Positions 10,707 to 25,350 of a stretch of 33,515 bases of DNA are shown in pieces (position 1 is the stretch's first letter; the number at the start of each line of letters is the position of its first letter). Origin of the DNA: Chromatiales bacterium (GTDB taxonomy: Bacteria > Pseudomonadota > Gammaproteobacteria > Thiohalospirales > Thiohalospiraceae); contig JALSHD010000012.1 of NCBI GenBank assembly GCA_026982395.1, positions 1 to 33,515 on the forward strand. The letters run 5' to 3'. A model generated the notes under the pieces. The model did not search any database, was not told the DNA's origin, and saw only the letters and a program-made list of their open reading frames with translations. The translations under genes were made by a program, and so were the position numbers.

Positions 10707-12898
<2,192 letters not shown>

Positions 12899-23832: not shown

Positions 23833-24354
23833 TCAGCGCCAGCTGACAATCTCGTCCAGATGCCGCCGTGGTGACAGTTCTGCAACCTCGGCAGGATAAC
23901 CGATGCTGAGGATCGACAGGGGGATCTGATCGGCCTCCAGTCCCAGTATCTCCCGCACCCGCTGTTCGTCAAAATCCCCAACCCATGTGGAGGCCATTCC
24001 GGCGGCTACTACGGCCAGTTGGGCATAGGTGGCCGCGATGGTGGTGTCCTGCAGCGCGTAGATGTTGGCGCCACGTTCACCAAAGTGCTCGGCGGAGCGT
24101 ACCGGTTCTGCGCTGAATACCAGAACAACGGGTGCTTCGGCGATAAACTGCTGCCGGGAGGCCGCTTCGGCCAGCTGTTTGCGGATCTGTTCATTGCGGA
24201 CAACGGTGATGTGATAGGCCTGAAGATCGCCTGCAGAAGGTGCGGCGCAGGCGGTCTCCAGAATGGCGTTCAGCTTTTCCGCTTCTACCGGTGTATCCGT
24301 CTGGTATTTGCGAATGGAGTGACGGTGACGGACGGTTTCAAAAAAATCCCACAT
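23833..24354 (-). CDS. Nitroreductase-family flavoprotein
   Basis: A 173-residue FMN-binding protein. The N-terminal RHSIRKYQ and PSAGDLQAYHITVV are typical FMN-phosphate-binding segments, and LSIGYPAE is near the C-terminus. Such enzymes reduce nitro compounds, quinones or related acceptors with NAD(P)H; the real substrate is unknown. Ribosome binding site AGGAG seven bases before the ATG. A 208-bp MITE-like element ends just upstream of this site, so the promoter must be inside or beyond it. It converges with sbcB. Confidence 0.9.
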   Translation of the reverse strand: MWDFFETVRHRHSIRKYQTDTPVEAEKLNAILETACAAPSAGDLQAYHITVVRNEQIRKQLAEAASRQQFIAEAPVVLVFSAEPVRSAEHFGERGANIYALQDTTIAATYAQLAVVAAGMASTWVGDFDEQRVREILGLEADQIPLSILSIGYPAEVAELSPRRHLDEIVSWR

Positions 24355-24375
24355 GGTTTTTCTCCTGTTACCTGG

Positions 24376-24583
24376 GAGGCTGTCCGAGAATAGAGAGCCT
24401 ACTGCGGAAAGCCGTTTTGGTCCATTTTTCCGCTCATTTTCGTTAAATATGAATCACTATTTGCCTCGAATGACCAAAAAATGGACTCAAAACGGCTTTC
24501 CCTCGCTACGACCACCACGGATGGCGGAAGTGTCGGTTTTGCAGGAGCAACAAGCCGGTCGGCCCCTATTCTCGGACAGCCTC
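24376..24583. mobile_element. MITE-like element with terminal inverted repeats
   Basis: A 208-bp non-coding element bounded by perfect 18-bp terminal inverted repeats: GAGGCTGTCCGAGAATAG at 24376-24393 and its complement at 24566-24583. CTGG directly repeats on both sides (24372-24375 and 24584-24587), as a 4-bp target duplication would. Inside lies a second inverted repeat: GGAAAGCCGTTTTG (24406-24419) with its complement at 24488-24501, extended by TCCATTTTT / AAAAATGGA. It has no transposase and no plausible gene, so it would have to be mobilised in trans. The parent IS family was not recognised. Confidence 0.88.
24406..24501. repeat. Internal inverted repeat of the MITE-like element
   Basis: The two arms (24406-24430 and 24476-24501) are nearly perfect complements of about 24-26 bp around a 45-bp AT-rich loop, so the transcript can form a long hairpin. 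The arms are not placed symmetrically with respect to the outer repeats: the right side carries about 64 extra bases (24502-24565), suggesting that this part was added or kept separately. Confidence 0.8.
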
Positions 24584-24597
24584 CTGGTTGAACAGGG

Positions 24598-25350
24598 TTA
24601 CTGCCTTCGTTTTGGAGCAGAGTAGTCCGGGAAATTGAGTCGAAGTACGCGCCGGGCATCATCAGCCAGACCCTGTCGCCCCATGTGTTCATAGGCTCTG
24701 GACATGATATCAAGAGCTTCGGCAACAGAAAGGGTGTTTTGATAGTGCTCAACAACATATCTGGCCCGGTTGACGGCGGCCAGCCAGGCCTCTCTTTCCA
24801 TATAGAATCTGGCGACATGGATTTCGTGACGGGCCAGGCTGTTGAGCAGGTACTTCATGCGCTGCAGCGCGTCGGGACGATATTTGCTGTCGGGAAATTT
24901 ACGGGCCAGTTCGGTGAAATAGGTAAATGATCGCCGCAGATGGCCGGGATCCCGCTCGGTCGGATCCTGATTGAATGTTTTATTCAGGAAGTTTTCTCCC
25001 TGTGAGAAGCTGGCCAGTCCGCGCAGATAGTAGGCGTAATCGACATTGGGGTGGCGCGGGTGCTGTTTGATGAAATTGTCGGCAGCAGCGATAGCCGATT
25101 CCGGCTCATCCCCTTTGTAGTAGGCATAAATGATATCCAGATCCGCCTGTTCCGCATGCCTGCCGTAGGGGTAGGCCGTTTTTAGCTCTTCATAGTAGCG
25201 AATGGCGGTTTCATAGTCCCGATTGTCCAGTGCGGTTTTGGCTTCCTGGTAGTAGCGCTGCGCTGACCACTCTGTTTTTTTGTCAACGCTGGCGCAGGCA
25301 CCGAGCAGCAGAATCAACGATAAAATAAGAAGACGGGCTAGTAGTTGCAT
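24598..25350 (-). CDS. bamD: Outer membrane assembly lipoprotein BamD
   Basis: A 250-residue lipoprotein: signal peptide with lipobox LLGAC (Cys19), then tandem TPR-like repeats (YYQEAKTALDNRDYETAIRYYEELKTAYPYG, ADNFIKQHPRHPNVDYAYYLRG, FPDSKYRPDALQRMKYLLNSLA). BamD is the essential partner of BamA in folding beta-barrel proteins into the outer membrane. The start at 25350 is fixed by the signal peptide; an open frame runs far upstream but is the antisense of rluD. It is divergent from rluD with 90 bp between, as in E. coli. No clear ribosome binding site precedes the ATG. Confidence 0.96.
   Translation of the reverse strand: MQLLARLLILSLILLLGACASVDKKTEWSAQRYYQEAKTALDNRDYETAIRYYEELKTAYPYGRHAEQADLDIIYAYYKGDEPESAIAAADNFIKQHPRHPNVDYAYYLRGLASFSQGENFLNKTFNQDPTERDPGHLRRSFTYFTELARKFPDSKYRPDALQRMKYLLNSLARHEIHVARFYMEREAWLAAVNRARYVVEHYQNTLSVAEALDIMSRAYEHMGRQGLADDARRVLRLNFPDYSAPKRRQ

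Follow-up and report, generated by a model that had tools for sequence, protein, structure and literature searches.

A palindromic sequence of 208 bp (positions 24376-24583) lies in the intergenic region between a nitroreductase-like gene and bamD of a Chromatiales bacterium, and raises the question of what kind of element it is and which transposon could move it. The window analyzed here, 33,515 nucleotides in length, comprises contig C12 in its entirety, one of the 193 contigs into which a draft genome of 2.72 Mb is divided. The sequence is short, is bounded by terminal inverted repeats and has no transposase gene, being crossed by mechanical open reading frames (ORFs) only, the combination by which miniature inverted-repeat transposable elements (MITEs) are recognized [Table 1]. 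The perfect 18-bp terminal repeats claimed by an earlier, sequence-only reading of this DNA are exact, reach 19 bp when the flanking G/C is included, and form the sole perfect inverted repeat of at least 17 bp (starts no more than 500 bp apart) in the window; none of 200 shuffles had one, these being approximate dinucleotide shuffles made by a simple walk that may end before the full window length. The probable CTGG duplication and the second, internal inverted repeat that it had noted were also recovered, the internal arms being 70% complementary without gaps. Its claim that the right side has about 64 bases that the left lacks was correct for the right spacer, which is 64 bases long (24502-24565), but not for the excess itself, which is 52 bases net of a left spacer of 12 (24394-24405). 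The element has folding z-scores of -9.4 on the plus and -10.5 on the minus strand, with energies of -105.9 and -113.6 kcal/mol, respectively; the better-folding minus strand is the sense strand of both neighboring genes. Elsewhere in the window, a TPP riboswitch is found at 10875-10970 (plus strand, 65.1 bits).

Table 1. Positions of the element's parts and of the neighboring genes in the window
Feature	Position	Strand	Evidence or remark
Nitroreductase-like gene	23833-24354	minus	best NCBIfam score below cut-off
Left target-site duplication CTGG	24372-24375		sequence; G006 C43 has CAAGA instead of CTGG-element-CTGG
Left terminal inverted repeat GAGGCTGTCCGAGAATAG, IS1182 type	24376-24393	plus	perfect, 18 bp
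Core, match to covariance model R2	24395-24512	minus	99.8 bits; window outside R2 training set; minus is the better-folding strand here
Conserved core motif CTACTGCGG	24399-24407	plus	alignment A1
Left arm of internal inverted repeat (long hairpin)	24406-24449	plus	repeat search, fold, covarying pairs
Conserved apex, family consensus CGTTAAATAG..CTATTCGCCTC	24441-24467	plus	alignment
Right arm of internal inverted repeat	24458-24501	plus	repeat search, fold, covarying pairs
Conserved core motif CTCGCTACGA	24502-24511	plus	alignment; nested repeat starts at its end
Nested two-hairpin small palindromic repeat (independent repeat family)	24510-24559	plus	R1 match, 61.3 bits, E 2e-13; copy belongs to R1 training set
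Right terminal inverted repeat	24566-24583	minus	perfect 18 bp relative to left end
Right target-site duplication CTGG	24584-24587		sequence
bamD	stop at 24598	minus	TIGR03302, 282 bits

The mobility of this element is supported by an empty site and by further copies. In a genome of the same genus (G006, contig C43), flanks 85% and 87% identical to those of the window are joined by five bases, such that TGTTGC-CAAGA-TTGAACAGGG stands in place of TGTTAC-CTGG-[208 bp]-CTGG-TTGAACAGGG; a single short stretch thus replaces the element and both CTGG motifs, and its being CAAGA rather than CTGG implies that the target has changed or slipped. The 18-bp end recurs in the genome itself, which has three copies, that of the window included. 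One of the other two (C133:44820-45031) is 209 bp long, is 91% identical over its length and has the same insert at the same site; the other, on C1, is an 87-bp fold-back form built of two left halves. Identical flanks are seen in one of the three copies, those of the other two being CTAG/CTGG and TTGG/CTGG, one base apart between sides. At the C133 copy (L002, 1499-1711), the left flank CTAG provides the TAG stop of the preceding ORF, and the corresponding gene in G006 ends without the element in flanks whose divergence hides the duplication; the C1 copy is missing at the corresponding place in G004, again with flanks too diverged for the duplication to be read. A pattern covering the two end types described below matched G006 52 times in forward and 51 times in reverse orientation. 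Outside chromosomes, no match to the element was found in phages, one exact core pattern returned no match from IMG/VR, and one plasmid record, from Pseudomonas sp. MPC6, had a match. The existence of copies in this genome and in relatives, the full insertion sequences with matching ends found elsewhere, and an empty site judged to be in keeping with target duplication uphold the earlier proposal of a non-autonomous mobile element.

The sequence-only reading named no parent for this element. Its ends can now be matched to elements of the IS1182 family, a likeness from which we consider an IS1182-family insertion sequence very likely to be the parent, and IS1182-type transposons probably to be what mobilizes it. 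Three full insertion sequences flanked by CTAG on both sides, L176 of Marinobacterium profundum (1744 bp) and L145 and L173 of Desulfosediminicola flagellatus (1839 bp), agree with the ends of the element over the first 15-16 bases, with a mismatch in one end of L145 and of L173; what these three have in common with the MITE is the ends alone, over fewer than all 18 bases. Scored against the IS1182 model NF033551 (cut-off 270), the transposases of L176 and L145 reach 387 and 384 bits and protein P0001 of G146 reaches 368 bits, and the partner transposases carry the Pfam domains DDE_Tnp_1, DDE_Tnp_1_6 and DUF772. G146 has three full copies of its insertion sequence, with sister ends GAGTCTGTCGGACT and CTAG flanks, and two contig-broken loci of G006 have the N-termini of IS1182 transposases directly inside similar ends. 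The full insertion sequence with the same ends that the earlier reading proposed to look for is thus present in other genomes, over the first 15-16 bases, but none above the cut-off is present in the element's own assembly. No transposase exceeding the NF033551 cut-off was found in this genome (G000) or in 12 genomes of its family, in a search where contig-cut transposase fragments could not reach that score. In the 3.2 kb inspected at the best match of the own genome (C61, 136.9 bits), no ends of this type were found, and no facing pair of ends at insertion sequence distance was seen in the surroundings of single ends (L126-L130). The element would therefore be an orphan there, or its partner fell into assembly gaps; a multi-copy insertion sequence may be absent from an assembly of 193 contigs.

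The ends are widespread. In named genomes, CTRGGAGGCTGTCCGAGAA was found at 116 loci at least, in Nitrosomonas (N. halophila included), Endozoicomonas (E. acroporae included), Mariprofundaceae, Methylococcaceae, Desulfobulbaceae and others. Among the matches listed for these loci, at least 84 short end pairs were counted, 57 of which have identical flanking 4-mers (CTAG in 54 of the 57) and 27 differing ones, CTAG then mostly standing on one side, with CCAG, CTGG or CTAA frequent on the other. Very-short-patch repair, which turns CTAGG into CCAGG, could be a cause of such unequal flanks. The matches listed also include four longer end pairs, of which three enclose a transposase gene and the fourth (L223, 388 bp) has CTAC/CTAG flanks. 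At least two versions of the end exist, GAGGCTGTCCGAGAATAG and a sister type GAGYCTGTCGGAYTTAGG; each shares its outer part with IS1182 elements, and the core motifs are constant between the two versions. The pattern of the sister type was present in 44 of 369 genomes of the class, with no match of the reversed-pattern control among the matches listed, and its partners share GAGTCTGTCGGACT. A second type of MITE, roughly 139 bp long, combines the same IS1182 ends with a different core and was observed repeatedly in Desulfobulbaceae and other deltaproteobacterial records (L133, L181, L187, L197 and others).

A MITE partnered with an IS1182 element is a kind of element already known. The partner of one Methanosarcina acetivorans MITE (160 bp, 14 copies, 4-bp direct repeats) is ISMac2 of the IS1182 family, a second ISMac2 MITE of 169 bp being listed without direct repeats, and Methanosarcina MITEs are described as sharing little beyond the ends with their insertion sequences (PMC3852290). 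Set beside our element by description, the 160-bp MITE resembles it in presumed partner family, size and 4-bp repeats, but is archaeal and has inverted repeats of 26 bp as listed in that report (PMC3852290). Three bacterial insertion sequences can be likened to the partners found here on the basis of their published descriptions: ISPse1 of Paracoccus (IS1182; 1653 bp, ends 16/16, 4-bp repeats) in size and duplication (PMC3281130), ISPsy36 of Pseudomonas syringae (IS1182 family, 1666 bp) in size but not in its target, GGCC, and ISPsy32 of the same species in its CTAG target (PMC8027508). QMITE1 and QMITE2 of Coxiella burnetii, some of which yield small RNAs, are described as palindromic MITEs with very stable predicted folds too, but with direct repeats of 2-3 and 7-11 bp (PMC5896051).

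Between the ends lies a core common to 77 of the 118 distinct elements in the collected loci, 62 of the 77 measuring 158-161 bp, and an alignment of 50 elements (A1) shows CTACTGCGG, CGTTAAATAG..CTATTCGCCTCAAA and CTCGCTACGA to be kept across both end types. R2, a covariance model of the core without the ends, had matches in 41 of 249 Pseudomonadota genomes. We inspected 29 matches, which remained of the 35 obtained from 29 of 30 loci (the window's own being omitted) once the four weakest, two of them partial or weak and two antisense to a stronger match, and a further two at the edges of contigs had been set aside. An end was present on the left in 27, on the right in 27 and on both sides in 25, compared with 1 of 110 stretches in a shifted control, so that core and ends appear mostly to travel together; the same counts lend no support to the idea that transposon ends captured a free-standing RNA gene. 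An IS1182 element reduced by simple internal deletion, its interior free of constraint, would account for the ends and has precedent in the known IS1182-partnered MITEs (PMC3852290), but is in our view improbable given that the core was not seen in the 150 subterminal bases on either side of the three insertion sequences, recurs across the phylum at nearly constant length and has co-varying arms. Less probable still is an immobile intergenic palindrome of the REP or terminator type. The element is indeed intergenic and palindromic, and its relatives lie near gene ends (15 convergent, 23 tandem and 1 divergent setting among the 39 of the 77 elements that were usable with crude, ORF-based gene calls), but transposon ends, a 4-bp duplication and an empty site argue against such an origin; as to a core acting as a terminator, no intrinsic-terminator match (a G+C-rich hairpin followed by a T run) was found in 24300-24700. 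The edge of the element coincides exactly with the stop codon of the neighboring ORF in 14 of the 39 cases, the stop being the TAG of the CTAG target, so that the duplication leaves the ORF intact.

It is also conceivable that selection acts first of all on the core as a single folded strand, be it structured RNA or single-stranded DNA, for which the ends are merely carriers. Compensating double changes affect 40 of 54 pairs in A1 and 47 of 65 pairs in A2, an alignment of 35 of the same elements in the opposite orientation whose consensus energy is -96.9 kcal/mol, compared with -57.7 kcal/mol for A1, the two sets differing in number. The inner pairs of A1 show A.C 83 times and G.T 20 times when the nearly invariant G-T column 48-116 is omitted, an excess expected from wobble pairing on the opposite strand, but 83 and 66 times when that column is kept; with the same column left out, 18 representatives of less than 80% identity show 28 A.C and 7 G.T (11 vs 2 columns). 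In 60 of 62 locus groups of the discovery set, and in all 17 genomes of a second set, it is the opposite strand that folds at lower energy, with a mean difference of -12.8 kcal/mol in the second set; part of the difference in energy goes back to a single ancestor. The second set started from 60 regions, 14 of which were without a complete element, and 5 of the remaining 46 elements belonged to another type, leaving 41. A strand-neutral count of their arm mismatches gave 170 G.T and 116 A.C (13 vs 2 genomes, 2 ties), and mostly Watson-Crick columns of the 30 elements of 150-170 bp gave wobbles at 62 vs 26 (17 vs 6 columns), relatedness inflating these strand and mismatch counts. When derived wobbles were submitted to a sign test by genome, the outcome was 8 vs 2 of 13 (p 0.11). 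Further points against a core selected as a strand in its own right are its position between transposon ends on both sides in most R2 matches, the lack of orientation bias relative to neighboring genes (9 same and 14 opposite in the 23 tandem cases, which also refutes an orientation with transcription), and the finding in 24300-24700 of neither a sigma-70-like promoter nor an intrinsic terminator. Over the element, no Rfam family reached its gathering score, sub-threshold matches being limited to microRNA models. The pairing and strand data are moderate evidence that one strand is selected as RNA or single-stranded DNA. We put forward as a tentative idea, somewhat doubtful as it stands, both that the fold came first and that the 158-161-bp core would be a single-strand-acting RNA or folded single-stranded DNA, spread across proteobacterial groups between IS1182-type ends and receiving hairpin repeats in its internal loops.

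Most of the extra bases on the right-hand side (50 of the net 52) are a separate nested repeat, composed of a hairpin GACCRCCANNNATGGCGG followed by a second hairpin around GCAGGAGC, without which the element measures 158 bp. The pattern of this repeat was found in 9 of 56 genomes, the own genome included, with one match of the reversed-pattern control; G051, G046 and G012 have several copies. It also exists without the element: all 25 covariance-model matches checked in eight other genomes (G046, G051, G032, G004, G109, G012, G006 and G266) lack an end pair within 260 bp, three of them having a single end-like match with two mismatches, and three matches in the own genome and in G003 do have an end pair; the model, R1, was trained on 19 copies, several of these matches therefore being so by construction. 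The insert occupies the same site in the C133 copy and in a G003 element of the other end type, and other small palindromes are inserted in other copies (L099, L109, L142); as read off the consensus fold, the insert sites would be internal loops. In appearance, the nested repeat is a hairpin repeat inserting into the loops of hairpins. REP-type palindromes are dispersed hairpin repeats, as this repeat is, from which it differs in its two consecutive hairpins with similar loops. Several copies of it were also seen inside other palindromes (L279, L281, L268, L260), flanked for example by GCGACGGT and CCGTCGC, or by ATTCCCGC and GCGGGAAT.

Altogether, we favor, with a probability of roughly 0.9, a MITE that an IS1182-family DDE transposase mobilizes in trans and that was later enlarged by a nested insert. 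A transposase of this family would recognize ends of the GAGGCTGTCCGAGAATAG type and insert the element at CTAG-like 4-bp sites, which would thereby become duplicated, the 158-161-bp form being the standard unit of the family across several proteobacterial groups. In the lineage of the window, the 50-bp two-hairpin repeat would then have inserted into one copy, in its right arm, at a point predicted to be an internal loop in the consensus fold. The enlarged element probably remained mobile, as suggested by the second genomic copy with the same insert at the same site. Counting against this IS1182-based account are the lack of a transposase above the cut-off in the own genome and the 12 family genomes, the unequal flanks of two of the three own copies and of 27 of the 84 pairs among the matches listed, the CAAGA of the empty site, and the restriction of the likeness with the three insertion sequences compared to ends that match over fewer than 18 bases.

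Searches of the open-access literature by sequence string and by word found no published copies of either end type, of the core motifs or of the nested repeat, and no description of a broad spread with one core, of the strand effect or of the nested repeat was found in the literature so searched. This family is unusual in that a single core of nearly one length, its arms co-varying, persists in records that bear the labels Gammaproteobacteria, Nitrosomonas, Mariprofundaceae and Desulfuromonadaceae, and in the signs that one strand in particular is of consequence. If the strand does matter, what seems an inert leftover of a transposon would in fact be functional RNA or single-stranded DNA, and the two end types would make it possible to test how elements without a transposase of their own track that of the host. 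The nested repeat provides a composite in which to study how small hairpin repeats invade other palindromes.
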